Source: Streptomyces dangxiongensis (GTDB lineage Bacteria; Actinomycetota; Actinomycetes; Streptomycetales; Streptomycetaceae). Taken from it: a stretch of 64,000 nucleotides of DNA. Position 1 is the stretch's first letter; every line of letters starts with the position of its first letter. Of the stretch, positions 44,157 to 61,744 are shown one piece after another. The stretch is taken from NCBI RefSeq assembly GCF_003675325.1, contig NZ_CP033073.1, positions 5,642,001 to 5,706,000 on the forward strand, written 5' to 3'. The translations under genes and the position numbers were made by a program. Under the pieces are notes generated by a model. It saw only the letters and a program-made list of their open reading frames with translations, had not been told where the DNA came from and did not search any database.

Positions 44157-44624
44157 GTGGACAACAGGCAGGCACTCGGATCGTGGCTCTCCGGCCCCCG
44201 CGCGGCCATGGAGGACGCGGGCGCCGACTTCGGATACCGGGGCGAGCAGCTAGGTCTGCCGGAGGACGGGCCGAACTCGATCGCACGGCCCGGACGGCGG
44301 CTCGGCGCCCTCGTCGTGGACTGGGCGCTGTGCGTGCTGATCGCATACGGCCTGATCACCCACGGCTACGGCCCCGCCACCAGCAACTGGGCACTCGGCG
44401 TCTTCTTCGTCCTGAGCGCCCTGACCGTCGGCACGGTCGGCTTCACCCCGGGCAAGCGCCTGTTCGGCATCCGGGTCGTGGCCCTGGAGACCGGCACTGT
44501 CAGCCCTGGGCGCTCGCTGCTGCGCACGGTCCTGCTGTGCCTCGCGATCCCCGCCCTGGTCTGGGACCGGGACGGCCGCGGCCTGCACGACCGGCTCGCC
44601 AGGACGGTCGAAGTCCGCAGCTGA
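44157..44624 (+). CDS. RDD-family membrane protein
   Basis: A 155-aa protein with RDD-type features: the Arg-containing start RPGRRLGALVVDWALC, three hydrophobic segments, TPGKRLFGIRVV and the terminal DGRGLHDRLARTVEV. GTG 44157 is the first plausible start. Role unknown; RDD proteins often sit beside glnA in Streptomyces. From memory of S. coelicolor, the DUF4191 gene should follow closely, but here the pigment cluster and the integrated element separate them. Confidence 0.88.
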   Translation: MDNRQALGSWLSGPRAAMEDAGADFGYRGEQLGLPEDGPNSIARPGRRLGALVVDWALCVLIAYGLITHGYGPATSNWALGVFFVLSALTVGTVGFTPGKRLFGIRVVALETGTVSPGRSLLRTVLLCLAIPALVWDRDGRGLHDRLARTVEVRS

Positions 44625-44838
44625 CACACGTGCCGGACGGGCACCGACGTCCCGGACGGCACCCGCATGCCGGAGGCGGCCTGGACGCCGGGCACCGCCC
44701 GCGTGCCGGAGGAAACCCGCACAGCGGATGCCCCACGTGCCGGCCGCCATCCGCACCCCCGGACGGTATCCGACGCACGGCGTCCGACGCCGCCCGTGTC
44801 CCCAGGTGCGGGCGGCGTCCGGCGTGTGCGCGGCCGTC

Positions 44839-46485
44839 TCAGCCGCGGCGCAGGATGTCCGCCAGCACCTCCCGCAGCCCGGCCTCCGGGTCCCGGACGG
44901 TGCCGGAGGCACGCCAGGCCACGAATCCGTCCGGCCGCACCAGCACCGCCCCGTCGGCCGTGACGCCGTGGGCCGCCGCCCAGTCTTCGCCCTCCGTGTC
45001 GTACGTCAGCCCGGCGTCCGCGCCCGCACCGATCCGGTACGCCTCCAGGGGCACGCCGTCCGTGCCGGCGACACGGCCCGCGGCGGCGTGCCAGCCGGCG
45101 CCGGCCGCAGACCCGGCGTCGCAGAGCAGCACCGGGAACCGCTCGTACAGGTCGAGGGTGGAGATCCGTTCGCCCGCGCGGCGCAGCCACAGGTGCGGGG
45201 CCCGGCTGCCCGGCTCCCCGGTCAGCCGCAGCCCGTCGGGGACGACCGGCTGGTCCGGGTCGGCGCCCACGACGGCGCCCTCGGGGTAGCGGTAGCCGAG
45301 GACCACGTTGAGGATGCCGCCGCGCTTGCCGCCACCGATGCCGGGCGCGGGCGCGAAACCGGGGTGGCTGTGCTCCACCGAGCGGGCCGAGGCCCGGGCG
45401 CTGGTCGCCAGGGCCACCGGCCGGCGCTCGGTGTCGTACGTCCCCAGCAGGCCGGGCCCGGCCCAGCCACCGAGTACGGCGGCCAGCTTCCAGGCCAGGT
45501 TGTGGGCGTCCTGGATGCCGGTGTTGGAGCCGAACGCGCCGGTGGGCGACATCTCGTGGGCGGAGTCGCCCGCGAGGAACACCCGGTCGGCCGCGTACCG
45601 TTCGGCCACCCGTTCGGCGGCCCGCCAGGACGCCTTTCCGGTGATCTCGACATCCAGGTCCGGGGCGCCGACCGCGTGGCGGATGTGCCGCTGGAGCCGC
45701 TCCTCGGTGAACTCCTCCAGGGTCTCGCCGTGCTCCGGGTGCCAGGGGGCGTGGAAGACCCAGTTCTCCTTGTTGTCGACCGGCAGCAGCGCCCCGTCAC
45801 CCCCCGGGTCGGTGAGGTAGCAGCAGATGAAACGCCGGTCGCCGACGACGTCGGCGAGCAGCTTGGACCGGAAGGTGACGCTCACGTTGGCGAAGAGGTC
45901 GCCGGGGCCGTCCTGCCCGATGCCGAGCCGGCCCCGGACGGGGCTGCGCGGGCCGTCGGCCGCGACCAGGTAGTCCGCGCGGACGGTGTACATCCGGTCG
46001 CTGTCGCGGTTCCGGATGTACGCCGTCACTCCTTCGGGGTCCTGCGCGAACGACTCCAGCTCGTGGAAGTACCGCAGGTCGCCGCCGAGCGCGCGGGCCC
46101 CCTTCACGAGGACCGGCTCCAGGTCGTTCTGGCTGCACAGGCACCACCCCGTGGGGCTGAGTCTCGCGAGCCCGCCGCCCGGGTCGATCTCCTTGAACAG
46201 CCATTCCCCGGCGTCACCGACCAGGGACGGGGTCTGGAGGATGCCGTGGTTGCCCGCGAGGAGCGCGGCCGCCTCCTGGATGCCGGGCTCGACGCCGGCC
46301 CCCCGGAACAGCTCCATCGTCCGCACGTTGTTGCCGCGTCCGCGCGGGTGGACCGAGGTCCCGGAGTGCCGCTCGACGAGCATGTGCCGTACGCCGAGAC
46401 GGCCCAGGAACAGGGACATGGACAGGCCCACCAGAGAGCCGCCCACGACGAGGACGGGAACCTGGTGATCGGCTTTGTGCTGCAT
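44839..46485 (-). CDS. FAD-dependent polyketide hydroxylase (whiE ORFVIII-type)
   Basis: A 548-aa flavin monooxygenase of the aromatic polyketide hydroxylase type. The Rossmann FAD motif VLVVGGSLVGLSMSLFLGRLG is near the N-terminus, and the second FAD motif is RVFLAGDSAHEMSPTGAFGSNTGIQDAHNLAWKL. A thioredoxin-like C-terminal domain ends the protein. It probably oxidises the aromatic product of the adjacent type II PKS. It is transcribed divergently from the PKS operon, exactly as the ORFVIII hydroxylase is in whiE. The ATG at 46483-46485 follows CAGGAG. Confidence 0.9.
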   Translation of the reverse strand: MQHKADHQVPVLVVGGSLVGLSMSLFLGRLGVRHMLVERHSGTSVHPRGRGNNVRTMELFRGAGVEPGIQEAAALLAGNHGILQTPSLVGDAGEWLFKEIDPGGGLARLSPTGWCLCSQNDLEPVLVKGARALGGDLRYFHELESFAQDPEGVTAYIRNRDSDRMYTVRADYLVAADGPRSPVRGRLGIGQDGPGDLFANVSVTFRSKLLADVVGDRRFICCYLTDPGGDGALLPVDNKENWVFHAPWHPEHGETLEEFTEERLQRHIRHAVGAPDLDVEITGKASWRAAERVAERYAADRVFLAGDSAHEMSPTGAFGSNTGIQDAHNLAWKLAAVLGGWAGPGLLGTYDTERRPVALATSARASARSVEHSHPGFAPAPGIGGGKRGGILNVVLGYRYPEGAVVGADPDQPVVPDGLRLTGEPGSRAPHLWLRRAGERISTLDLYERFPVLLCDAGSAAGAGWHAAAGRVAGTDGVPLEAYRIGAGADAGLTYDTEGEDWAAAHGVTADGAVLVRPDGFVAWRASGTVRDPEAGLREVLADILRRG

Positions 46486-46693
46486 CGAGGCTCCTGAGGC
46501 AGAGGTGGGGTGTGGGGTGTGAGGCGTGTCGGAGTGTCCATGCCCGGTGGGAGGGGTTCCGCGTGCGCAATCACCCGCGTGGTTCACGCGAGTCGCGCGC
46601 ACCGGGGGACCGGCACAGGATCAGAAAGCGCTGACGTCGCGTCATCGGCGGCCGGCGTTCGGCTCTGCCCCCCGTGAAGGAGATGTGCGCAGC

Positions 46694-47779
46694 ATGACCA
46701 CCACGTCGGAAAAGGTTTCTGAACAGCTGACGCGACACGTGTCGAAGCGGGTCTCCCAGTCCGTGTTCGACGGCTCCCGCCTCCGCGTCGTCCTGCTGGT
46801 GGACGTACACGACGGCGCCCAGCAGCAGTTCCTGGAGGCCTACGAACAACTGTGCAGCCAGGTCGCGTCCGTGCCCGGCCACGTCAGCGACCAGTTGTGC
46901 CAGTCGATCGAGAACCCCTCCCAGTGGCTCATCACCAGCGAGTGGGAGAGCGCCCCGCCGTTCCTCGCCTGGGTGAACAGCGAGGAGCACGTGCGGATGG
47001 TGGAGCCGCTCCATAGCTGCGTGCGGGACACCCGCTCGCTGCGCTTCCACGTCGTCCGCGAGACGGGCGGCGACGCCGCCGCGGCCAGCGCGGCACAGCG
47101 CCGGCTCCAGACGGCCCCGCGGATCGGCGACGGCGTGATCCGGCACGCGCTCACCTTCACGGTGAGGCCGGGCAGCGAGCCGCAGGTCGCGAAGATCCTC
47201 GCGGACTACGCCTCGCCCGAGGCGCGGGTCGACGAGACCACCCGTCTGATGCGCACCTCCCTGTTCATGCACGGCAACCGGGTCGTCCGGGCCATCGAGG
47301 TCCGCGGTGACCTGCTCGCCGCACTGCGCCACGTCGCCCGGCAGCCCGAGGTACGGGCGGTCGAGGAGGCCATCAACCCCTACCTGGAGCAGGAGCGGGA
47401 CCTCCACGACCAGGAGTCCGCACGGGTGTTCTTCACCCGGGCGGCGCTGCCGGCCGTCCACCACGTCAGCGCGGACGAACTGCCCGAGGGCGAGCGGCAC
47501 GCGCTGTACTACCCCGCGAGGCCGGGCCTCGGGATGCGGCTGGCCGAGCTGCTCGCCCGGCAGGACGAGGAGGCGGCGGAGGACCCGGGCAGCCCGGTCC
47601 TGCGCAGCACGATCTTCCAGCGTGACGACGTCGTCGTCCGGCTGATCGACGTGCGCCCCGGCCCGGGCGCCGACGCGGTCCTGCCGCGACGCGCGGCGCG
47701 GGCCCCGCTGGACGCCCTGCTGGACGGCGACGCCGTCCGCATGGAACTCATCACCGACCGCCGCTCGCCGGTCGCCTGA
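46694..47779 (+). CDS. SchA/CurD-like protein (whiE ORFI-type)
   Basis: A 361-aa protein of the SchA/CurD family found as the first gene of spore-pigment PKS operons. It contains antibiotic-biosynthesis-monooxygenase-like ferredoxin folds ([39 protein letters not shown] with WLITSEWES; later domains are weaker). The exact activity is not established. First gene of the minimal PKS operon. ATG 46694 has AAGGAG about 11 nt upstream. Followed by the cupin gene after 33 bp. Confidence 0.85.
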
Positions 47780-47812
47780 CTGTCAGGCGCAGCACACCCA
47801 CGGAGGAACGTC

Positions 47813-48277
47813 GTGATCAAACCCCTTCCGAAGATCGTGGACCTCAGCGAGGTCGAGCACAACACCCGGCGCGGTGGCGATCTGCGAGCCATGCTCACCC
47901 CGGCCACGGTGGGCTCCACCAGCGGTTTCATGGGCGTGGCCCTCATCCGGCCCGGCGAGCGCATCGGCGAGCACTACCACCCGTACTCCGAGGAGTTCGT
48001 GTACGTCGTCTGCGGGGAGCTGGAGGTGGACCTCGACGGCGAGCCGCACCCGCTCCGGCCGGAGCAGGGGCTGATGATCCCCATCGACGTGCGCCACCGG
48101 TTCCGCAACGTGGGCGACGTGGAGGCGCGGATGGTCTTCCACCTGGGTCCGCTGGCCCCGCGCCCGAGCCTGGGACACGTCGACACGGAGGAGACGGAGG
48201 TCATCGGGGCCGCCGCGGTGGTCACGGAGCCCGCTGTCGCGGGTGCCGCCCGCGGCCGGGGTCAGGTCCGGTCATGA
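47813..48277 (+). CDS. Cupin protein (whiE ORFII/SchB/CurC-type)
   Basis: A 154-aa cupin. The barrel carries [25 protein letters not shown] with metal-binding His/Glu residues and the second motif [11 protein letters not shown]. It is conserved in spore-pigment clusters, where it is thought to help tailor or cyclise the polyketide. GTG 47813 follows GGAGGA. Its stop overlaps the KS-alpha start (ATGA). Confidence 0.85.
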
Positions 48278-49542
48278 CCCGGCGCGTGGCGGTCACTGGC
48301 ATAGGCATCGTCGCCCCGGGCGGCATCGGCGTACCGGCCTTCTGGGATCTGCTCGCCAACGGCCGGACCGCGACGCGGGGCATCACCTTCTTCGACCCCT
48401 CGGGACTGCGGTCGCGCATAGCGGCGGAGTGCGACTTCGACCCGGCGGCCCACGGCCTGGACGAGGAGCAGGCCGCACGCGCGGACCGGTACATCCAGTT
48501 CGCGCTGGTCGCCGGGGCGGAGGCGGTCCGTGACTCGGGCCTCGACCTGGCGCGGGAGGACCCGTGGCGGGTCGCGGTGTCCCTGGGCACCGCGGTCGGC
48601 GGCACCACCCGGCTGGAGCACGACTACGTCCTGGTCAGCGATCGCGGCGAGCACTGGGACGTCGACCACCGGCAGGCGGAGCCGTACCTGCACCGGGCGT
48701 TCTCGCCCAGCACGGTCGCCTCCGCGGTGGCGGAACGGTTCGGCGCCCAGGGCCCGGTGCAGACCGTCTCCACCGGCTGCACCTCCGGCCTGGACGCGGT
48801 CGGGTACGCCTTCCACACCGTTGAGGAGGGCCGGGCGGACATCTGCATAGCGGGTGCCTCCGACTCCCCGATCTCCCCGATCACCATGGCCTGCTTCGAC
48901 GCGATCAAGGCCACGTCCCCCAACAACGACGACCCCGCCCACGCCTCCCGGCCCTTCGACAACAACCGTGACGGATTCGTCATGGGCGAGGGCGGCGCGG
49001 TGCTCGTCCTGGAGGAACTGGAGCACGCCCGGGCCCGCGGCGCCCATGTGTACTGCGAACTGGGCGGTTACGCCACCTTCGGCAACGCCTACCACATGAC
49101 CGGCCTGACCAGCGAGGGCCTGGAGATGGCGCGGGCCATCGAACTGGCCCTCGATCACGCCCGGCTGGACCCGACGGCGATCGACTACGTCAACGCGCAC
49201 GGCTCCGGCACCCGGCAGAACGACCGTCACGAGACGGCGGCCGTGAAACGGGCGCTCGGCCCGCACGCCTACGACACGCCGATGAGCTCCATCAAGTCGA
49301 TGGTGGGGCACTCCCTCGGGGCGATCGGGGCGATCGAGGTCGTCGCCTGTGTGCTGGCCCTGGCCGAGCAGGCCGTACCGCCGACCGCCAACTACGACAC
49401 CCCCGACCCCGAGTGCGACCTGGACTACGTCCCGCGCGTCGCCCGCGAACGGAAGCTCTCCAGCGTCCTGTCCGTGGGCAGCGGGTTCGGGGGCTTCCAG
49501 TCCGCCGTGGTCCTGACCCGGACGAGGGAGAGGACACCATGA
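48274..49542 (+). CDS. Type II PKS ketosynthase alpha subunit
   Basis: A 422-aa KS-alpha. The catalytic triad is complete: Cys169 in [13 protein letters not shown], His309 in VNAHGSGT and His346 in [13 protein letters not shown]. It condenses malonyl units on the ACP with KS-beta. The [11 protein letters not shown] form fits the spore-pigment clade. The start overlaps the cupin stop and the end overlaps the KS-beta start (both ATGA), giving equal translation of the two subunits. Confidence 0.95.
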
Positions 49543-50783
49543 GCGAACCGCACGACCGGCGCGCGGCCATCACCGGCATCGGGGTGGTCGCGCCGAACGG
49601 CACCAGCACCGACACCTTCTGGAAGGCCACCCAGGAAGGCCTCAGCGTCCTCGACCGGGTCACCCGCGAGGGCTGTGAGCACCTTCCGCTGAAGGTGGCC
49701 GGCGAGGTCCGCGGCTTCGACCCGGCGGCGACGATCGAGGAGCGGTTCCTCGTCCAGACCGACCGGTTCACCCACTTCGCCATGGCCGCGGCGGACTTCG
49801 CCCTCGACGACGCGCGGCTCGGGCAGGCCGACGCCACCGAGGCGCCCTACTCCATCGGCGTGGTGACGGCGGCCGGCTCCGGCGGCGGCGCGTTCGGCCA
49901 GCGCGAACTCCAGCAGCTATGGAGCAAGGGCAGCCGGTTCGTCGGCCCCTACCAGTCCATCGCCTGGTTCTACGCCGCCAGCACCGGCCAGATCTCCATC
50001 CGCCGCAAGTTCAAGGGCCCCTGCTCGGTCGTCGCCTCCGACGAGGCCGGCGGCCTGGATGCCCTGGCGCACGCGGCACGGGCCGTACGGCGCGGCACCG
50101 ACGTGATCGTGGCCGGTTCCACCGAGGCGCCGCTCGCGCCGTACTCGGTGGTCTGCCAGCTCGGTTACGACGAGCTGAGCACCGTCGCCGACCCGTCCCG
50201 CGCCTACCGCCCGTTCACCGAGGACGCCTGCGGGTTCGTGCCGGCCGAGGGCGGCGCGATGCTCGTGGTGGAGGCGGAGACGGCCGCCCGGGAACGCGGC
50301 GCGGACATCCGCGCCCATCTCGCGGGACACGCGGCGACCTTCACCGGCGCCTCCCGCTGGGCGGAATCCCGCGAGGGGCTCGCCCAGGCGATCCGCGGCG
50401 CCCTGGCCGAGGCGGACTGCGCCCCGGAGGAGGTCGACGTGGTCTTCGCCGACGCCCTCGGGGTACCGGAGGCCGACCGCGCCGAGGCGCTGGCCATCGC
50501 CGACGTCCTCGGCGCGCACGGCCGGCGCGTGCCCGTCACGGCGCCCAAGACCGGGACCGGCCGCGGCTACTGCGCGGCACCGGTGCTGGACACCGCGGCG
50601 GCCGTGCTGGCACTGGAGCACGGCCTGATCCCACCCACCCCGGGTGTCGTCGCCGTCTGCCACGACCTCGACCTCGTGACCGGCCGAGCCCGCCCCGCCG
50701 AGTTGCGTACGGCGCTGATCCTCAGCCGGGGCCTGATGGGGTCGAACTCGGCACTCGTCGTGCGCCACGGCGCCGTCGGGTGA
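49539..50783 (+). CDS. Type II PKS ketosynthase beta subunit (chain-length factor)
   Basis: A 414-aa KS-beta/CLF. The overall fold matches KS-alpha, but the active-site cysteine is missing. The corresponding block reads [16 protein letters not shown], with Glu169 at the position where most chain-length factors have Gln (AEQAGG). It dimerises with KS-alpha and sets chain length; whiE-type systems make long dodecaketide-type chains. The gene overlaps KS-alpha by 4 bp, with the ACP gene 54 bp downstream. Confidence 0.93.
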
Positions 50784-50837
50784 ACCGCACCGCCGCCCGC
50801 CCAGCAGCACACCAGCAGCAAAGGAGAAGGAATCGCC

Positions 50838-51576
<739 letters not shown>

Positions 51577-51597
51577 GCCGGACGACAGGAGAAGACC

Positions 51598-51930
51598 GTG
51601 CACCAGGCCCTGATCGTCGCCCGCATGGCCCCGGGTTCCGCCTCCGACATCGCCAAGGTGTTCGCGGAGTCCGACCGCGGAGAGCTGCCGCACCTCGTCG
51701 GCGTCGTCCGGCGCAGCCTCTTCCAGTTCGGCGACGTGTACATGCACCTCGTCGAGTCCGAGCGGGAGCCGGGACCGGCCATCGCCAAGGTCACCTCGCA
51801 CCCCGACTTCGTCGAGGTCAGCGAGCGCCTCTCGGCGTACGTCAGCGCGTACGACCCGGAGACCTGGCGGTCCCCGAAGGACGCGATGGCGCAGCGCTTC
51901 TACCTCTGGGAGCGCGACGCCGGAGCGTGA
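51598..51930 (+). CDS. TcmI-family polyketide cyclase (whiE ORFVII-type)
   Basis: A 110-aa ferredoxin-like-fold cyclase of the TcmI family (HQALIVARMAPGSASDIAKVFAESDRGELPHLVGVVRRSLFQFGDVYMHLVE). It closes later rings of the aromatic product. GTG 51598 follows AGGAGAAG. Last gene of the pigment operon, with a strong terminator 14 bp after its stop. Confidence 0.92.
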   Translation: MHQALIVARMAPGSASDIAKVFAESDRGELPHLVGVVRRSLFQFGDVYMHLVESEREPGPAIAKVTSHPDFVEVSERLSAYVSAYDPETWRSPKDAMAQRFYLWERDAGA

Positions 51931-51943
51931 GACCCCGTCCGGC

Positions 51944-51986
51944 CACCGGTGCCGGGCCCGCGTCCGACGCGGGCCCGGCACCGGTG
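51944..51986. terminator. Bidirectional terminator after the pigment operon
   Basis: Perfect 19-bp arms (51944-51962 / 51968-51986) with a 5-nt loop, between the convergent cyclase and methyltransferase genes. Confidence 0.92.
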
Positions 51987-52005
51987 TGGCGTGCGAGGCG
52001 TCCGC

Positions 52006-53070
52006 TCACGCGGAGACCGTGCAGTCGAACGCGTGCAGATAGGGGTTGACCGGCCGGATGTCACCGACGGCCAGACCCGCGCGCTCCAGCCGCGCGACCA
52101 TGCTGGCGGTGGTGTGCTTGGCCCCGCCGACGTTGAGCAGCAGCAGCAGGTCCATGGCGGTGCTGAACCGCATCGACGGGGTGTCGTCGACGAGGTTCTC
52201 GATGACCACGACCCGGGTGCCGGGTCCGCCCGCCTCCACCACGTTGCGCAACAGCCTGGTCGTGGACCCGTCGTCCCACTCCAGGATGTTCTTGATGATG
52301 TAGACGTCGGCCTCGACCGGGACGGACACGCGGATGTCGCCGGGCACGATGCGCGCCCGGTCGGAGAGGTCGCCGCCCTCGCGCAGCCGCGGCACGGCCT
52401 TCTCCACCACCCGGGGCAGGTCGAGCAGGTAGCCCCGCATCGCCGGGTACTTGTCCAGCAGGCTCGCCACCACGTGACCCTGCCCGCCGCCGAGGTCCGC
52501 GACGGAGGTGGCGCCGGACAGGTCCAGCAGGGCGGCGACATCGCGCGCCGACTGCTCGCTGGAGGTGGTCATCGCGCGGTTGAAGACGTCCGCCGACTCG
52601 GGGGCGTCCTCGTTCAGGTAGACGAAGAACTCCTTGCCGTAGAGGTCCTCGACGACGTTGCGGCCGGAGCGGACCGCCTCGTCCAGCCTCGGCCAGGCGT
52701 CCCAGGTCCACGGCTCGGTGCACCACAGGGAGATGTGGCGCAGGCTGTTCGGGTCGTCCTCGCGCAGCAGCCGCGACATCTCGGTGTGGGTGAACGTCCC
52801 GTCCGGCCGCTCGGCGAAGACGCCTTGGCAGGACAGGGCGCGCAGCAGCCGGCGCAGCGGCTCGGGCTCGGCCCGCACCGCCGTCGCCAGGTGCTCCACG
52901 GTCAGGGGCGCGTCGCCGAGTACGTCGGCGACGCCCAGCCGGGCGGCGGCGCGGACGGCGGCGGCACAGGCCGCCCCGAACACGAGCTCTCTCAGCCGCA
53001 TCGACGGCGGAGGAGGAGGGAGCGCCCCTTGCCCGGCCGGTGCCGACAGCTCGGGGGATGGTGCGGTCAT
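52006..53070 (-). CDS. SAM-dependent O-methyltransferase
   Basis: A 354-aa O-methyltransferase of the polyketide/acetylserotonin type: N-terminal winged-helix dimerisation domain (LVFGAACAAAVRAAARLGVADVL), SAM-binding DLGGGQGHVVASLL and a late VVVIENLVDD block. It is convergent with the PKS operon and probably methylates a phenol of the pigment. This enzyme is not part of the eight-gene whiE core as I recall it, so it may give a modified product. Confidence 0.88.
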   Translation of the reverse strand: MTAPSPELSAPAGQGALPPPPPSMRLRELVFGAACAAAVRAAARLGVADVLGDAPLTVEHLATAVRAEPEPLRRLLRALSCQGVFAERPDGTFTHTEMSRLLREDDPNSLRHISLWCTEPWTWDAWPRLDEAVRSGRNVVEDLYGKEFFVYLNEDAPESADVFNRAMTTSSEQSARDVAALLDLSGATSVADLGGGQGHVVASLLDKYPAMRGYLLDLPRVVEKAVPRLREGGDLSDRARIVPGDIRVSVPVEADVYIIKNILEWDDGSTTRLLRNVVEAGGPGTRVVVIENLVDDTPSMRFSTAMDLLLLLNVGGAKHTTASMVARLERAGLAVGDIRPVNPYLHAFDCTVSA

Positions 53071-53113
53071 GTGCCGCCTTCCTTCCTTGCGTGGGTGGGG
53101 TACGCCTGTCCGG

Positions 53114-54205
53114 TCAGCACAGTCCCGCGGGCTTGGAGGCCCGGCAGGAGTTGCCGTCGAAGGTGTTCTTGCGCTTGACGGCCTCCTGGTTCACCAGGTC
53201 CGCCGGGGCGTTGTCCTCCAGGTGGTTGCCGGTGATCCGGTTCTGTTCGCTCGCGGCGCCCACGAAGCTCTTGAACAGGACGATGCCGCCCGACAGGGGG
53301 GACTTCCCCGAGTGACCGATGATCGTGTTCCCCGTCACCAGTGCCTTCTCGGTGCCGGTCAGCACGATGCCGGACCCCTTCAGGTAGGGCAGCCGGGCGG
53401 TCTTGGGGCAGTACTTGTTGTTCCACTCCAGGCGGTTGTCGCTCACCGTCAGGGCGCCCGCCCGCGGCTTGTTCTCGTCGCCGACGACGAACACGCCGGC
53501 GCAGTTGGCGGTGAGGTAGTTGCCGGTGACGGTGAGGTTGCGCAGTCGGCGGACGGTGATGCCGATGCGGTTGTCCTCGAGGTGGTTGTGCTGGACCAGC
53601 GCGCCCTTGCTGTCGGCGGCGCCCTGCTCGGCCTTCACGTTGTTGGCGAGGAACAGGCCCGCGTCGCCGTTGCCCCGGGCGGTGTTCTCCCGGAAGACGC
53701 CGCGGGTGGAGTGCTCCTGGGCGATGCCCCACTGCCCGTTGTCGTCGGCGGTCACCCGGCGCACGGTCAGGTGGTCGGTGCCCATGGCCCACAGGCCGGT
53801 CCGGGAGAAGCCGGCCACCTTCAGGTCGGCGACGGTGACGTCCCGCAGGGCCTTGTTCTTCCCGCCGACGACGCAGATGCCGTTGCCGTTCCCGCTACAG
53901 GTGACGGAGGCCTTCTTCGGCTTCTTCGAGGTCGTGGCGGGTTTCTTCCCGGCGGGCCGGATCACCGTGCGGTGACCGGCACCGCGCAGGGTCAGTCCCG
54001 GTGTCCGCACCGTGACGCTCTCCCGGTAGGTGCCGGCGAGTACGAGCACGGTGTCGCCGGACCGGGCGGCGTTCACCGCCTTCTGGATCGACTCACCCGG
54101 ATGCACCACGAGGGTCCGATGGGCGGCCGACGCCGGGGTGGTGCCGGCGAACGTGCCGAGGAGGGCCGCGGTGCACGCGAGGTACGAGATTTGGCGTTTT
54201 TTCAC
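53114..54205 (-). CDS. Secreted right-handed beta-helix (NosD/pectate-lyase-like) protein
   Basis: A 363-aa exported protein with a signal peptide (KKRQISYLACTAALLGTFAGTTPASAA), then a parallel beta-helix start (LVVHPGESIQKAVNAARSGDTVLVLAGTYRESVTV) and many Asn-rich turns (NHLEDN, GNYLTAN, GNTIIGH), as in NosD/PbH1 proteins. Four C-terminal-half cysteines may form disulphides. No catalytic set is recognised, so wall or polysaccharide binding or hydrolysis are both possible. The start GTG at 54205 lacks a good ribosome site. It lies 43 bp beyond the methyltransferase start in the same orientation. Confidence 0.78.
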   Translation of the reverse strand: MKKRQISYLACTAALLGTFAGTTPASAAHRTLVVHPGESIQKAVNAARSGDTVLVLAGTYRESVTVRTPGLTLRGAGHRTVIRPAGKKPATTSKKPKKASVTCSGNGNGICVVGGKNKALRDVTVADLKVAGFSRTGLWAMGTDHLTVRRVTADDNGQWGIAQEHSTRGVFRENTARGNGDAGLFLANNVKAEQGAADSKGALVQHNHLEDNRIGITVRRLRNLTVTGNYLTANCAGVFVVGDENKPRAGALTVSDNRLEWNNKYCPKTARLPYLKGSGIVLTGTEKALVTGNTIIGHSGKSPLSGGIVLFKSFVGAASEQNRITGNHLEDNAPADLVNQEAVKRKNTFDGNSCRASKPAGLC

Positions 54206-54399
54206 AATCCGAAGGCTAGGAGCGCATGACCCGATCACCCGGTGGATGCTCCGTTCGGCGGCGTGTCCACCGGAGTCGGGGGAGCGTCCCGCACGGGCGT
54301 CCGGGGAACGGCCGTGCGGGACGCTAGCTTCGCGAGCGGTCCGACGGCTCCGCCCCGTCCCGGGGCGGGACGGGGCCACGGCTGCGAGCGGGGGCAACG

Positions 54400-54900
54400 G
54401 TGACCGGTTCCACGCAGGACGCGCACGGTGCGGCAGCCGACCCCCTCGGGCGCCGGAGTTTCCTGGCGTCGGCGGCCCTGGTGGCCGCCGCCCAGGTCCC
54501 GGCCGCAGATTCGGCGCGGGCCGCAGATTCGGCGCGGGCCGCGGACCCGACCCGGCCGGGGGTCCCGACCCGGCCGGCGCGCTGCCGGAGTGCGGGCCGC
54601 CCGCCGGGCCCGGCGGGCGGCCCGTGGCGGGACCGCTCGCCGTCCCCGAGGCGGACCGCGGGGTCGGCTGGCCGAGGCAGGCCCTGGAGGCGCCGTGGCA
54701 CTCGAACCCATGCGTGCGATGGAGGAGCCCGCCGTGCGGCTGATGGAGTTCACGATCCCGGACGCCCCGGGCAACTACGGCCCGCTGTTCCGCCTGATCC
54801 GGACGGCCCCGAGCGCCCCCGCTCCCAAGGACGCCGGCCCGGGACGACGCCGGCCCCGACAACGCCCGGGGGCGTGCGGGGCCTGACGGTCGTGCGGGGC
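54400..54900 (+). pseudogene. Disrupted Tat-exported protein gene
   Basis: A GTG at 54400 opens a frame with a twin-arginine signal (PLGRRSFLASAALVAAAQV). Coding character then moves through other frames: ALPECGPPAGPGG in one, and ALEPMRAMEEPAVRLMEFTIPDAPGNYGPLFRLI in a third. A tandem 18-bp repeat (two copies of CCGCAGATTCGGCGCGGG at about 54,500-54,540) sits at the first break. I read it as a frameshifted secreted-protein gene. The family is not identified. Confidence 0.4.
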
Positions 54901-54950
54901 CTGACGGTTGCGGACGGCCGGTGGTGGTGCGTGGTGGTGCGGCGGAGTGC

Positions 54951-55010
54951 TCAGCGCCCCCGCGGGCCACCCTTGGGCAGCTTCATGCCCTTCGGCATCG
55001 GGCCCTTCAC
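54951..55010 (-). pseudogene. Displaced original 3' end of the DUF4191 gene
   Basis: The minus-strand codons VKGPMPKGMKLPKGGPRGR followed by TGA form the natural continuation of MSNMPVPKGP in the DUF4191 gene whose body is at 61.68-62.33 kb. The 11-bp core shared by both places (AAGGGCCCGAT on the minus strand) is where the element integrated. Joining 61,683 to 54,996 across the core restores MSNMPVPKGPMPKGMKLPKGG with no break. The fragment has no start of its own. Confidence 0.85.
54997..55007. repeat. Left attachment-site core of the integrated element
   Basis: ATCGGGCCCTT, identical to 61,672-61,682. To its left lies the displaced tail of the target gene, to its right the element. It is the crossover core of a serine-integrase reaction, inferred from the sequence pair and the restored reading frames on both sides. 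Confidence 0.85.
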
Positions 55011-55082
55011 TCTGTCAGCGACGCTCTGACCTGCGCAGACAGCCTCAGTAAGGCGGTGCCGGCCTCGCAGACCGGACAAGAA

Positions 55083-55110
55083 GAAGGCCCGGCCAGCAGG
55101 CCGGGCCTTC
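55083..55110. terminator. Perfect terminator near the left element end
   Basis: 12-bp arms GAAGGCCCGGCC / GGCCGGGCCTTC, loop AGCA. In the integrated state it has no obvious upstream gene on the plus strand. In the excised circle it would lie 31 bp after the stop codon (55,049-55,051) of the integrase frame. Confidence 0.85.
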
Positions 55111-55213: not shown

Positions 55214-55414
55214 TCAGGGCTGCACGCTCTTGGCCATCTCCATGAAGGCGGCCCAGGCGCCGGCCGAGACGTTCAGTATCGGACCATCGTCGTACTTGGT
55301 GTCCCCCACGGGGACCAGGCCATGGCTAGCGGCAAGGTTCGTGGCGACCTTGACGCACTGGCCGCCGTTGCTGCTGTAGGAGGACGTGAACCATTGCGGG
55401 TGTTCGGTCGTCAC
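55214..55414 (-). CDS. DUF397 protein
   Basis: A 66-aa DUF397 protein (WFTSSYSSNGGQCVKVATNL..., GPILNVSAGAWAAFMEMAKS). Such small proteins are partners of XRE regulators in Streptomyces (BldB-like, toxin/antitoxin-like pairs). Its GTG start at 55412-55414 overlaps the stop of the regulator gene (GTGA), so the pair is co-translated. Confidence 0.93.
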   Translation of the reverse strand: MTTEHPQWFTSSYSSNGGQCVKVATNLAASHGLVPVGDTKYDDGPILNVSAGAWAAFMEMAKSVQP

Positions 55415-56238
55415 AGGATGCCCTTTCGTAACTCACGGATCATGGCCACACTGGCGGTCTGAGACTCCGCCTCGACCTGAAGCTGATGGTAGGCCGTCAA
55501 GGCTGTAACGACGGACGTGGCTTCCCTTACGAGATGGCCACGTTGCGCCGACTCGGCGTAGACGAGCTGCGTTCTGTCCCTCAGCGTCAGCATGGTTACT
55601 GGCAGGTCGAAAGCCCGGCGCTCACCAAGAGCGTACGGGGCCACCTGGAGAACAGTCGACGGCAGCTCCGCGAACTCAATTAACCTGTCGAGCTGACCCG
55701 CCATGACCTCAGGACCGCCCACGGGCCGCCTGATACAGCTCTCGTCCAACACGGCATGCACCAGAGGGACCGGCGTGCGCGCTAATGCCGCTTGCCGCTC
55801 CGCGAGGTGCGACAACCGTTCTTCCGCCTGTGACTCCGTGATCGCACCCCGCCTGACCGCTCCAGCCTGGATGGCTGCGGCGTACTCGGGTGTCTGGAGC
55901 AAGCCGGGGATGATCCCGACCTCGAAGAGTCGGATTTCGACTGCCCGTAGCTCATGAGGGACGTACTCCCTGAACCCTTCTAGCAACGACGGACGGTGTA
56001 CCTCCTCGCACTCGCGCTGAAGCTGGTACCCAGTGCCAAGCGCCCTGTCAGCACTTGCCGCAAACTGTGGAGTTGGAGAACGGCGACCAGTTTCGACAGC
56101 CGAAATGTGCGAATCGGTGCAGCCGATCCGATCAGCTAGCTCCTGCTGTGTCAGCCCTTCCTTGTCTCGCAGCCTGCGGAGGAGCTGGCCGAACGCTGCC
56201 TTGGCCGACGCCTGCGGGTCGAGCTTCCTTCGGTTCAA
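55411..56238 (-). CDS. XRE-family regulator with DUF5753-type C-terminal domain
   Basis: A 275-aa regulator: N-terminal HTH (FGQLLRRLRDKEGLTQQELADRIGCTDSHISAVETGRRSPTPQF) and the C-terminal DUF5753 domain common to the Streptomyces regulators paired with DUF397 proteins. Probably controls the divergent small-gene cluster of the element. The intergenic region 56,239-56,373 would hold both promoters. Confidence 0.92.
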   Translation of the reverse strand: MNRRKLDPQASAKAAFGQLLRRLRDKEGLTQQELADRIGCTDSHISAVETGRRSPTPQFAASADRALGTGYQLQRECEEVHRPSLLEGFREYVPHELRAVEIRLFEVGIIPGLLQTPEYAAAIQAGAVRRGAITESQAEERLSHLAERQAALARTPVPLVHAVLDESCIRRPVGGPEVMAGQLDRLIEFAELPSTVLQVAPYALGERRAFDLPVTMLTLRDRTQLVYAESAQRGHLVREATSVVTALTAYHQLQVEAESQTASVAMIRELRKGIL

Positions 56239-57347: not shown

Positions 57348-57686
57348 GGATCTGATTTCGTCTGTCGGCGTCCTTAATTGGGCGATCCTCAAGGGGGGAC
57401 GACAAGTGTCCGGCAGATGGCCCATGAACCAAGGCCATTCGAAAATTACCTACGGCTGCGGCTGGCCGATCCGGTCCAATCCCGGACATGGGCACCCCCC
57501 TCAACCCCTTGTAGTTTAGTCAGGGAAAACACCCCAACGCGCATAAGGCCACATTCGGGGCGATCGGGCGCGGGGAGACTCACGGTTCAAGTCCGGGCAA
57601 GGGGACTGCTCGCCCTGGGGCACAAGGTCCAGGACAGCCCGAGCGCCACCAGGGCGAGCCCGAAACAATCGAGGCCGGGAGAGACC
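57348..57686. other. Non-coding leader region of the radical-SAM operon
   Basis: About 340 bp with no convincing gene. It is less GC-rich than the surroundings, with AT-rich patches at 57,440-57,455 and 57,505-57,535 (TTGTAGTTTAGTCAG). The promoter of the maturase/peptide genes is probably here; no hairpin or riboswitch recognised. Confidence 0.4.
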
Positions 57687-58804
57687 ATGCATCAGGTGAT
57701 CGTGAGTCCCCAGCACAAAAAGTACGTTGCCGTGCGTCCTGGTTCACGCGGCGGGATGCAGCTTCCTCGTGAGAAGTACGTGGAAGTACGTGAAACTGTG
57801 AGCGCTGGCAGTCCCTTGCCCGCGTGGTTCATCGACGCCACAAAGAAGGTCTGGGGGCTGCGCCTGGACAGCGGGTCCGCGTCGAACACTGTCCTGGTCC
57901 GCCCTGAGACGGCGCTGAACTACAGCCGAGCAACCTGGGAGATCAACAAGGGTTGCAACTTCGCCTGTGACATGTGCGTGGTCTGGCAGCGCCCTTTCGC
58001 TGGTCTGCCGATGGGGGAGAAGATCAGACTCCTGGAGATGGTTCGGGATACCGGCGTGCTCTGGTTCCAGTTCACGGGAGGTGAGCCGACCATCGACCCG
58101 GACTTCATTGAGTCGTACCGCACCGCGTACGACATGGGGATGATGGTGGAGGTGCTAACGAACGGGTCGCGGCTTGACCACGGCCCTACGCTGGAAACCC
58201 TCACCGATCTGCCGCCCCACAAGGTCACAGTCTCCCTGTACGGGGCCTCGGCCGAGACCTTCGAGGCGCTAACGCGGACGCGAGGGGCCTACCGGAGAGT
58301 TCTCCGAGGACTCAGGGCGGCTACGGCCGCCGGGCTGCCCCTTGAACTTTCGCTCATCGTCACCGAACACAACGCGCACGAAGTCGATTCCATGAGGGCC
58401 CTGGCGGACAGCCTGACGTCCCGTACAAGGTATTCGCCAATATGTCTCCGTCTTACGACGGTGACAGAGGCCCACTCGACTTCCAGGCAACCGAGTACAT
58501 CAACAGGGAAGAGGTGTTCCGCGGATGTCCCGCCGGACACAGCTTCTACCACTTGGACCCGTTCGGCAGCGCAACTATGTGCAAGGTCGGACGCGAGAAC
58601 CCCATCAATCTCATGAGGACCGGGGTTGGTGGTCTGCGGCATCTGCCGCTCATCGCAGATGCCCAGATGCTTCGGACTGGGGGATGCAGCGGGTGCAAGC
58701 TCTCCGGCTCCTGTCGGGTGTGTCGACCGCTCGCCAAGCTCTACCAGCAGGCCGAAGCGCCGCTCAGTCACTACTGTCAGCACGGCTTCAAGGAGGACTC
58801 GTGA
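57687..58804 (+). pseudogene. Radical SAM/SPASM peptide maturase, single frameshift
   Basis: Encodes a radical SAM enzyme in two frames. Residues 1-75 form a PqqD/RRE-like N-terminal part (QLPREKYVEVRETVSAGSPL). Then comes the [4Fe-4S] motif CNFACDMC with Cys90, Cys94 and Cys97, and FTGGEP for SAM binding. A missing base near 58,413-58,417 shifts the frame. The rest (PYKVFANMSPSYDG onward, 58,419-58,804) holds the SPASM cysteines (RGCPAGHS, TMCKVG, GGCSGCKLSGSCRVC, YCQHG). Adding one base gives 372 aa, the normal size. The stop overlaps the start of the precursor gene (GTGA). Both halves are well preserved, so the break is recent or a sequencing error. Confidence 0.85.
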
Positions 58805-58905
58805 ACACGACCGAGGAGAGTAGCGAGGTCGTCCTCGTGGACGACGTGGAGGCCCTGGCCGAGGGCACCACGCCCGGCTGTGGGGATGACAACCCGTACC
58901 AGTGA
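58801..58905 (+). CDS. Candidate RiPP precursor peptide (34 aa)
   Basis: GTG at 58801 overlaps the maturase stop, with AAGGAGG 4 nt upstream inside the maturase gene. The 34-residue product has an acidic leader (EESSEVVLVDDVEALAEG) and a short core-like end TTPGCGDDNPYQ with a single Cys. A coupled short gene after a radical SAM/SPASM enzyme, ending just before a terminator, is the classical layout of a ribosomally made modified peptide. The type of modification is unknown; Cys, Thr, Asp/Asn or Tyr could be involved. Confidence 0.8.
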   Translation: MNTTEESSEVVLVDDVEALAEGTTPGCGDDNPYQ

Positions 58906-58972: not shown

Positions 58973-59785
58973 ATGGCCTCTCGTACCGCCTTTGAAGAGC
59001 TGCCCTCTGCCGTCCGTACGGCCATCGAGTTGCACACAGGGCGAATTCACCGTGTCGACCCTGTGTCCTCGGGCCTCAACAGTCAGGTAGCGGCCCGGCT
59101 GTACTGCGATGCCGGCGACGTGCATGTGAAGGGCCTTCGCTCTGACCATAAGTGGGCCTGGACACAGCAGCGTGAAGCCGAAGTGAACGCCTACCTCAGG
59201 GGAATTTCTCCAGAACTGCTCTGGCGGGTTAGAGAGAGTGGCTGGGATGTTCTCGGATTCTCCCTCATTACTGGCCACCACGCCGATTACACGCCGGAAT
59301 CGCCTGATCTCCCTCTTGTGGTTGACCTGCTTACGCGACTCGGAGGGGTGGAAGCCCCATCAATCGAGCTACGGGAAGCGGGACAAAGGCTGAGCAGTTA
59401 CGTAGATGACCCCGCACTGCTCTCCCTATTTGAGGGGAACGCACTCCTCCACACGGACCTGAATAATGAGAACGTTCTGATCCAAGGAGAACACGCCTAT
59501 ATGGTCGATTGGGCCTGGGCCACCCGCGGAGCCGCCTGGCTAGATGCAGGTTATTGGGTAATTTGGCTCATGGCCGCTGGAGGACACCCGGCCGAACAAG
59601 CGGAGTGGTGGGCCGCAAAGGTGCCTTCTTGGAGAACCGCGCCCTGCGAAGGAATCAAAGCCTTCGCTGTGGCCAACGCTAATCTTTGGAACGAGATTGG
59701 CGGGAATTCACCGGACCCTTGGACGGCTCGAATGGTGCTCGCAGCCAAAGAGTGGGCTGAGTACCGGTCCGCACTGTGTAGCTAA
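58973..59785 (+). CDS. Aminoglycoside phosphotransferase-like kinase
   Basis: A 270-aa protein with the APH/choline-kinase catalytic loop LLHTDLNNENVLI (HxDxxxxN) and the metal-binding Asp in MVDWAWATRG. The N-lobe is weakly conserved. It may phosphorylate the modified peptide, give self-protection, or act in another small-molecule step; position next to the peptide operon supports a role in it. GC is lower than in core genes. Its stop codon TAA is formed by the target TA plus the first base of the inserted IS; without the IS the stop would be TAG at the same place. Confidence 0.8.
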   Translation: MASRTAFEELPSAVRTAIELHTGRIHRVDPVSSGLNSQVAARLYCDAGDVHVKGLRSDHKWAWTQQREAEVNAYLRGISPELLWRVRESGWDVLGFSLITGHHADYTPESPDLPLVVDLLTRLGGVEAPSIELREAGQRLSSYVDDPALLSLFEGNALLHTDLNNENVLIQGEHAYMVDWAWATRGAAWLDAGYWVIWLMAAGGHPAEQAEWWAAKVPSWRTAPCEGIKAFAVANANLWNEIGGNSPDPWTARMVLAAKEWAEYRSALCS

Positions 59786-60653
59786 GGGCTGTCCCGTAAC
59801 TGCTGGTCACAGGTGGGATGATCTTGCCGTGTCTGGTGTGATCACGGCGTCGGAGCCTTCCTGGATAGCCCCGTTCACCGGGCTGAGCCCGCGGCAGTTC
59901 GGCAAGCTGGTCACCGCGCTGCGGCGGGAGGGTGCGGATCCGGTCCGCAAGGGCCGGCCGTGGAGCCTGCCGCTGGAGGACCGGGTCCTGCTGGTCGCCG
60001 CGTACTGGCGCACGAACCTCACCCTGCGCCAACTGGCGCCGCTGTTCGGGGTGTCGAAGTCGGCCGCGGACCGCATCATCGACCACCTCGGCCCGGCGCT
60101 CGCGCTGCAGCAGCGCAAGCGGTTCCGCAAGGACACCATGCTCATCGTGGACGGCACCCTGGTCCCCACCCGCGACCACCAGGTGGCCGAGCAGTCGAAG
60201 AACTACCGGTACTCCACCAACCACCAGGTCGTCATCGACGCCGACACCCGGCTCGTCGTCGCTGTCGGCCGACCACTGCCCGGCAACCGTAACGACTGCA
60301 AGGCGTGGGAGCTGTCCGGCACCAAGGATGCCGTCGGCCACACCACCGTCATCGCCGATGGCGGCTACCGCGGCACCGGCCTGGTCATCCCGCACCGCCG
60401 CCAGCCCGGCCAGGCCGACCTCCCCGAATGGAAAGAGGAACACAACGCCTCACACCGCAAGGTCCGCGCCCGCGTCGAGCACGCCTTCGCCCGCATGAAG
60501 ACCTGGAAGATCCTCCGCGACTGCCGCCTCAAAGGCGACGGCGTCCATCACGCCATGCTCGGCATCGCCCGCCTGTACAACCTCACCCTCGCCGGGTGAC
60601 GAGAAAACAAGCAGGTCACCAGGCACGTCAAAGATCATTTACGGGACAGCCCT
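59785..60653 (+). mobile_element. IS5-family insertion sequence (IS427-like group), 869 bp
   Basis: Terminal inverted repeats AGGGCTGTCCCGTAA (59,785) and TTACGGGACAGCCCT (ending 60,653) are perfect over 15 bp and flanked by TA on both sides (59,783-59,784 and 60,654-60,655), a 2-bp target duplication as in the IS427 group. It holds one transposase gene. High GC and an intact gene suggest a recent arrival. It lies exactly between the phosphotransferase gene and the truncated integrase. Confidence 0.9.
59829..60599 (+). CDS. IS5-family DDE transposase
   Basis: A 256-aa transposase with an N-terminal HTH (LTLRQLAPLFGVSKSAADRIIDHL) and a DDE domain: Asp in LIVDGTLVP, Asp in VIADGGYRGTG and Glu in RARVEHAFARMKTWKILRD. 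The GTG at 59829 starts 44 bp inside the left end. Complete and probably active. Confidence 0.93.
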   Translation: MSGVITASEPSWIAPFTGLSPRQFGKLVTALRREGADPVRKGRPWSLPLEDRVLLVAAYWRTNLTLRQLAPLFGVSKSAADRIIDHLGPALALQQRKRFRKDTMLIVDGTLVPTRDHQVAEQSKNYRYSTNHQVVIDADTRLVVAVGRPLPGNRNDCKAWELSGTKDAVGHTTVIADGGYRGTGLVIPHRRQPGQADLPEWKEEHNASHRKVRARVEHAFARMKTWKILRDCRLKGDGVHHAMLGIARLYNLTLAG

Positions 60654-60655
60654 TA

Positions 60656-61744
60656 GGCAGCAGCCCCAAGGAGGACGAGAGTTTGCACTACGTGTGCGCT
60701 GGCAAGAGGCCCGAGTATGCCGGCGCTGCAACGTGCTCTTGCTCCCAGATTTACGCGGACGGCGTTGAGGGGTGGGTCTGGGAAAACGTCTGCAACCTGC
60801 TTGGTGACCGGGACCGACTCTTGGCGCTTGCTGATGAGTGGGTGGGGGCAACCGCGAAGAAGCAGGTGGATTACTCCTCTCGCCTTGCTTCGCTGGATCA
60901 GAAGATCGCCGAGAAGAGCGACACCATCGACCTCATGACGGCCACCTTCGCAACGCAAGTGACCCGGCAAGGGCTCACAGGGCAGGCTGCTGAGGCCGCG
61001 GTCGAAAGGAAGCTCCAGCCGCACTACGCGGATCTTGAGCAGCTTCAGAAGGAACGAGCTGACATCGAGCTGTGGCAGTCGGAGGCTCAGGAAGCTGATC
61101 AGCGGGCGAAGGATCTTCACGCGCTTGCGCAGTCGGCGCACGGGCGCTTGCAGACCTTCACGAAGGAGCAGCAAGCGGAGTGGCTTGCCCTGCTGGACAT
61201 CAAGGTCAAGGTTCTTGAGAACCCGCCCCCGATGCGTCGGGGTCTCGCTTGCCCTGTCGGCGAGTGGTTCCGGGAGCATGAGCGCGACGTGCCGACTCTG
61301 GACGATCAGGTCTGGGGGCGGATTGCTGAGCTAGAGGGCTTCCCGAACGGGGGGCTCGTTCCTCGTCAGGCGGGCGGGGTGGCGCCTCGGACCGTGCTTG
61401 AGGCCTTCCTCAAGAAGGCTCGCACGGGGGCGTCGTGGCCCGCCCTGGAGGCTGAGACGGGCTCTAAGGGCCTGATCGGTCAGTGGAAGCGTTGGAGCAA
61501 GCAGGGACGTTGGGAACGCGTCATGGAGGTTATGAAGGGCTGTGACGGGGTGCCTGTGGCCCCCCGTCACCGACTCCCGAAGATGCAGATGACCGGGAAG
61601 GTGCGGCCCGGGGTCATCCTTGCCGCAACTAGCGCCCGCGAGGCGGGCGACCAGGAAGGCCACGCCCAGGAATCGGGCCCTTGGGCACCGGCATGTTGCT
61701 CATCAGGTCGCCCAGGGCGCGCAGCCGGTCGTTGGTGGCCGTGA
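60656..61744 (+). pseudogene. C-terminal half of a large serine integrase
   Basis: The frame lacks any start codon after the IS and begins inside the zinc-ribbon domain (LHYVCAGKRPEYAGAATCSCSQI with its four cysteines, EGWVWENVCNLLGD). A long coiled coil (about 60,860-61,190) and the conserved RRGLACPVGEWFREHERDV region follow. The N-terminal catalytic serine domain and most of the recombinase domain are gone. At the 3' end the frame crosses the attachment core at 61,672 and runs antisense into the DUF4191 gene to a stop at 61,742. In the excised circle it would instead end in SGPSLCQRRSDLRRQPQ and TAA. No longer able to mobilise the element by itself. Confidence 0.85.

Follow-up and report, generated by a model that had tools for sequence, protein, structure and literature searches.

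The decayed element and its host gene

The window, i.e. the whole 64-kb stretch of DNA that was analysed, carries a decayed phage-type element in the 3′ end of a host DUF4191 gene of the 8.16-Mb genome. The features at both element ends are listed in Table 1; C-terminal sequences are given throughout up to the stop codon. A large serine integrase gene (int) is represented at both ends: the right end carries its C-terminal half, the left end its 3′ terminus. The open frame at 60,305–61,744 holds the integrase stretch from 60,650 onward. As stated in a preliminary description of this DNA, the integrase frame passes into the right core (from 61,673) in the codons for SGP: it crosses the core as AQESGP and then runs into host DNA as WAPACCSSGRPGRAAGRWWP. 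The original ending of the DUF4191 protein, which is stranded beyond the left end, is identical to the ending at locus L110 of a related genome. Neither tRNA nor Rfam matches were detected in the 64-kb window, a plasmid relative was not found in our search, and the left end in the window had no match in phage records.

Table 1 Features at the two ends of the element, with positions in the window
Feature	Position	Strand	Basis
Stranded original DUF4191 3′ end PMPKGMKLPKGGPRGR, beyond the element, stop at 54,951	54,951-54,997	-	Translation
attL, left core TCGGGCCCTT	54,998-55,007	+	Comparison with related left ends
Junction where 31 bp of four related attL are absent; TTC on both sides in the relatives	55,005-55,006		Six aligned left ends
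Residual tail of the free-form integrase, FTLSATL, stop TGA at 55,027-55,029, frame kept in relatives	55,006-55,029	+	Alignment, translation
TAA named in the preliminary description, in the shifted frame	55,049-55,051	+	Translation
Hairpin, T-rich side on the minus strand	55,083-55,110		Folding, terminator scan
DUF397 gene, converges on the hairpin	55,214-55,414	-	Annotation
HTH/DUF5753 regulator gene	55,411-56,238	-	Annotation
IS5-type insertion sequence, DDE transposase, abuts the integrase remnant	59,782-60,656	+	Inverted repeats, annotation
C-terminal part of large serine integrase	60,650-61,672	+	Match to P0002
Host DUF4191 gene with replacement C-terminus IPGRGLPGRPPRGR, antisense to the last integrase codons	61,629-62,327	-	Translation
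attR, right core TCGGGCCCTT, within the integrase frame	61,673-61,682	+	Alignment, frame reading
Host-derived integrase tail, antisense through the DUF4191 gene	61,683-61,744	+	Translation

An RDD-family gene, which is located about 120 bp past the end of the host gene in locus L036 (S. cellostaticus), is about 10 kb away here (window positions 44,157–54,950), so that a second stretch of about 10 kb lies between the two genes. A radical SAM gene (57,378–58,905 region) is apparently split by a frameshift near 58,440. It is followed by a small ORF ending TTPGCGDDNPYQ, which could encode a peptide precursor and has no Pfam match, and by a gene at 58,973, again without Pfam match.

The integrase remnant

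The stretch at 60,650–61,681 corresponds to residues 341–684 of P0002, a 701-aa serine recombinase with the C-terminal end PSVQFSRVAYPFTCSVSV, with 94% identity. Because of this identity the window piece is placed among the large serine recombinases; its sole domain match is DUF4096, below the cut-off. When the whole genome was searched with P0002, residues 1–325 had no match, and the second genomic match (residues 326–573) belongs to a distant paralogue. The place of the 5′ half of int is occupied by the IS5-type element, which is bordered by 21-bp inverted repeats (59,782–59,802 and 60,636–60,656). Since the catalytic N-terminal half was not found in the genome, a switch of integrase expression or activity, as considered in the preliminary description, is not possible in this window and was rejected for this copy.

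The left end and the tail of the free form

In four related attL with an intact core (L036, L133, L147, L149), CCC and TTCACTCTG are exactly 31 bp apart. An alignment of six left ends revealed that the two are adjacent in the window (distance 0); the remaining left end, L042, has the same downstream sequence, but its core is damaged. The left end of the window thus appears to have lost 31 bp between the TTC repeats, and this loss would shift the integrase frame. The preliminary description had taken the tail SLCQRRSDLRRQPQ, closed by the TAA, as the true C-terminus of the free form. Continued literally from the left core the frame does read SGPSLCQRRSDLRRQPQ up to this TAA; this reading lies outside the conserved frame, however, which ends with FTLSATL, and the tail proposed earlier would be an artefact of the 31-bp loss. 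With its attL shortened and its catalytic half gone, the element in the window is a fossil.

Both element ends are found in one locus in L036, where the left core reads on as SDPSAAFSKVAFAFTLRV. Further attL tails at the DUF4191 site are PSEEFAIMGYPFTLATAP (L133), PSGLFTQVAFAFTLRS (L147) and PSAVFSGVALPFTLRSEG (L149), and SKVAFGFTLRV behind the damaged core of L042. A tail was thus read at 5 of 12 distinct genome loci with this site, the window excluded, and none at the other seven (L033, L035, L038, L039, L045, L054, L074); in L033 the left core is present and the expected tail is absent behind it. As a pattern for the host 3′ end matched only 1 of 12 genomes, left ends were located by core and neighbour gene instead. 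Little beyond the integrase gene is present between the RDD and DUF4191 genes of L038, L039, L045, L054 and L074, which we regard as solitary or stripped elements.

The hairpin next to the left end

The segment 55,060–55,135 is predicted to fold on both strands (plus strand −37.1 kcal/mol, z −3.7; minus strand −47.1 kcal/mol, z −4.6). The scanner matched the hairpin on the minus strand only (55,102–55,086, followed by TTCTTCTTGT), in a scan that is weak evidence by itself (5 sites versus a mean of 3.6 in shuffles), and at this hairpin the int strand gave no match to a terminator of the intrinsic type with its T run. The minus-strand match is in keeping with the convergent DUF397 gene, the end of which is at 55,214. 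The hairpin had been described as a terminator that has no gene other than int. It does exist, but the DUF397 gene (55,414–55,214 on the minus strand) converges on it, and a reading as terminator of int only was rejected in view of this gene and of the T-rich side on the minus strand. A hairpin follows the free-form stop in six left ends including the window (five with −22 to −32 kcal/mol, L149 with −13 kcal/mol), and it is possibly a shared two-way terminator.

Exchange of C-termini within the integrase family

Two protein searches yielded 150 proteins, 140 of which were long enough for a comparison of tails; P0019, P0020, P0034, P0035, P0036, P0056, P0065, P0104, P0125 and P0144 (short or partial) were left out before counting. 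Not one of the 140 tails ends in QRRSDLRRQPQ, the ending that homologues had been expected to share. The free-tail motif, consisting of alternating hydrophobic residues and small last residues, was present in 36 of 64 metagenome/viral proteins and in 0 of 76 NCBI-source proteins, a class that includes one enrichment culture and one MAG (Fisher test 3e-16, with the motif written after seeing the tails and relatedness uncorrected). Ends in AA occurred in 32/64 versus 0/76 proteins (Fisher test 5e-14, relatedness uncorrected). The C-terminus of free-type proteins is a conserved strand, typically IRFRMxLAA; integrated ones have other tails, derived from the host. Tails of the integrated state had been named as evidence against a split gene, and on this point the homologues give a mixed picture; nevertheless, non-free tails in all 76 NCBI-source proteins are expected if those copies are integrated. 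The simplest reading is that isolate genomes represent integrated prophages and metagenomes also contain free phages.

Comparisons of near relatives agree with this reading. P0038 (VTPGVIRFRMDLAA) and P0042 (ARAKSQGNS), at 85% identity, diverge only at the tail. The residues FKAS are common to P0083, P0084, P0093 and P0099, after which P0099 runs on into the end of an acyl-CoA synthetase. A precomputed AMP-binding_C domain is present in at least five proteins (among the 120 of 147 matches listed for the second search) and was confirmed for P0092. Membership of the relatives in the large serine recombinases is borne out by Resolvase and Zn_ribbon domains above the cut-off in both P0002 and P0038; a Recombinase domain was matched in P0038 (23.1 bits) and not in P0002. 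Between the coiled coil and the tail lies a DUF4096 domain (IS4/5 transposase type), above the cut-off in P0038 and P0130 and below it in P0002 and P0092.

The free-type ends closest to the window at its own site are SV, RV, RV, RS, AP, EG and GA, with TL in the window, and none of them is AA. Ends in AA occur in more distant members of the window-site group (P0033, P0108, P0118, P0131, P0139). Two isolated Streptomyces phages with distant homologues (26–28% identical) have the endings MDFNPTR and CVASLTV.

attL at other host sites

Tails that continue the Int frame from attL were found at five sites, namely DUF4191, dprA, an acyl-CoA synthetase gene, a Pnkp-like phosphatase gene and an unnamed site in L012. 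The claim that integration splits int, the free form having a different C-terminus, thus holds for relatives at five host sites. The identity of the synthetase site is based on a computed AMP-binding_C match, and those of DprA and of the phosphatase are our assumption. Outside the DUF4191 site attL was found at 8 of 24 loci (23 distinct, since L013 and L076 are one locus): L049, L051, L053 and L070 in a first set of 15 loci, and L010, L012, L014 and L019 in a second set of 9. The candidate left ends L046, L047 and L048 have short plausible tails without a verified core and were not counted.

At dprA the attL was read in 5 of 7 loci, with the ends MGVPTPLAGGATLAPIRFRLAIAA (L010), IGVPTPLPGGAALAPIRFRLAIAA (L014), MGVPTPLPGGAALAPIRFRVAIAA (L019), MGVPTPISGGAALAPIRFRLDHAA (L049) and GVPGPIPGSATLAPIRFRLDHAAA (L053). 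The frame in L010 and L019 was taken from continuity with the host DprA frame and not from a shared core, and in L007 and L020 the contig begins within about 10 kb upstream. The synthetase site (L070) has a shared core of 15 bp and the end FKASRSGGIPFQMRLGA, which resembles FKASRSGGISFLLTVAA, the end of the viral-contig protein in L087. At the phosphatase site (L051, end TAVSRGIIPFRIMVAA) and in L012 (end TVTPSVIRFRMELAA) the cores comprise only 5 bp, ATGGT and GTGAC, respectively, and the assignment rests on frame and motif.

Int and the host gene have the same direction at the dprA, synthetase and phosphatase sites. In this orientation Int is extended by 116–129, 115 or 602 residues from the host, and its own tail is passed to the truncated host protein. 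In L051, from 10,001, a single open frame comprises the integrase and about 600 residues of the phosphatase-like host protein.

Position of attP and proposed course of integration

The window very probably contains attL and attR of a decayed large serine integrase element whose attP would lie inside int, with exchange of the integrase tail upon integration. This position of attP, as deduced by sequence comparison from attL, attR and free-type proteins, is borne out, as are the exchange of C-termini and, at three sites, fusions with host genes in frame. In this family, which is characterised by a resolvase domain, a zinc ribbon and a DUF4096/IS5-type domain, attP would be situated within the last 15–25 or so int codons. 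Integration would cut int in such a way that its body stays at attR with a host-encoded tail. At attL the C-terminal residues of Int itself would remain, which in the wider family usually form a strand with the end FRMxLAA. The preliminary description is hence confirmed in part. It points to a real and general arrangement, the details of which were misread because the copy in the window is a fossil whose left end is shortened and whose catalytic half is missing. That QRRSDLRRQPQ is nonetheless the true free-form tail with a terminator of its own corresponds to the literal reading of the window, but it is extremely improbable and was rejected, given the frameshift by the 31-bp loss, its absence from the 140 tails, the polarity of the hairpin and the convergent gene.

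Possible roles of the exchanged tail

We infer that Int of the free form has an ssrA-like tail or a direction-specific strand which is absent from prophage Int, so that integration would reset stability or activity of the enzyme. The host tmRNA tag, ANTKRDSFALAA, ends FALAA and resembles the AA ends, and an AA-ending tail could therefore act as a ClpXP-type tag. It would mark newly made Int for proteolysis; integration would remove it and leave a stable prophage Int, and sense-oriented sites would pass the tag on to the truncated host protein. This account is plausible, if short of probable. Ends in AA are confined to the metagenome/viral proteins, attL host fusions end DHAA, AIAA and MVAA, and F, A and A hardly vary across 35 aligned proteins, which were, however, selected for free tails (P0084, P0100, P0109, P0112 and P0146, similar in the tail, were left out). 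A precedent in phage repressors is described in the available parts of PMC8092301 and PMC9934374. On the other hand, the closest relatives of the window lack AA, by a crude background count AA is also the end of 32 of the 296 long stop-to-stop ORFs from ten viral loci, and an AlphaFold model based on the 35-protein alignment places the tail in a β-strand. Rather tentatively, we extend the degradation account to the whole family: free Int might be short-lived owing to its ssrA-like LAA tail, and integration might yield a stable prophage Int with host sequence, sometimes a whole host domain, together with a degradation tail grafted onto the truncated host protein.

The same model allows for a structural role, in which the tail would be a β-strand of the C-terminal domain and its loss would alter DNA or RDF contacts and help to fix the direction of recombination. 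The strand is predicted at residues 678–684 (pLDDT block means 50 and 72) and follows a linker (657–676, pLDDT <50) at which the tail exchange falls, and strands 522–525 and 646–652 are nearby in the C-terminal part of the chain. Distant relatives keep the alternating hydrophobic pattern. We consider this role possible but doubtful, since the confidence of the model is modest, the alignment of 35 sequences is shallow and the model of P0002, from an alignment of mostly integrated-type proteins, has no ordered tail. The tail might also be without function in a compact module, as a passenger of an attP arm that overlaps the 3′ end of int. In the DUF4191-site tails pN/pS is 1.08 and GTTCACTCTG is invariant in five relatives, which points to a constraint at the DNA level, presumably by the attP arm, at this site; ACT is a rare codon in Streptomyces. 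The 14 tail codons at dprA are under mild constraint only (pN/pS 0.52). Yet the PIRFR codons therein are conserved with mostly silent change (pN/pS 0.06; five codons picked by eye, five sequences), and like tails recur at several attB sites as well as among free-type proteins, so that a mere passenger seems unlikely.

Relation to known systems

The arrangement resembles that of suicidal (SSV-type) archaeal tyrosine integrases, in which the att site lies inside the integrase gene and the gene is split on integration; here the split is deduced from attL tails and free-type proteins. In contrast to the SSV type, our family comprises bacterial serine integrases, with serine and not tyrosine recombinase domains, and a short C-terminal tail alone is exchanged, the catalytic part being whole in intact relatives. 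The available part of PMC8371274 describes integrases that split their own gene on insertion as a feature of archaea only.

In the integration-dependent immunity of mycobacteriophages (Broussard 2013, as presented in the accessible parts of PMC8092301 and PMC9934374) attP lies in a phage gene and an AA-ending, ssrA-like tail of the free form is removed by integration. AA ends on free-type proteins, which integration would remove, form a pattern in the wider family, but they are absent from the closest relatives of the window. In mycobacteriophages, as far as these sources reach, the split gene encodes the repressor and is located beside a tyrosine integrase gene, whereas here the serine integrase gene itself would be split, and attP is placed in int and not in a repressor gene. 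Integration-dependent immunity has also been proposed by synteny for the Streptomyces phage Tubberson, which has a serine integrase, with attP not named in the part of PMC12243558 at hand.

According to the accessible parts of the respective papers attP is located outside int in three phages: in phiJoe it lies 18 bp upstream (PMC5311408), in SV1 downstream of g27 (PMC4068962) and in Samy upstream of int (PMC12924846). The phiJoe and SV1 enzymes are Streptomyces serine integrases and thus of the same class, but attP adjoins int in these phages as far as described and would lie inside int here. Among the matches listed from the open-licence PMC literature, none described a serine integrase whose attP is located within its own gene.

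Tail removal by integration is known for repressors and splitting of the own gene for archaea, in so far as the sources cited cover this, and both appear to meet in one family of bacterial serine integrases, in which the arrangement recurs at several host sites. Whether the phage uses insertion itself to change the stability or direction of its integrase is a testable question. If int is copied from an integrated prophage of this family, the C-terminus that it encodes would be the wrong one, and searches for integrases usable in genome engineering could be misled.
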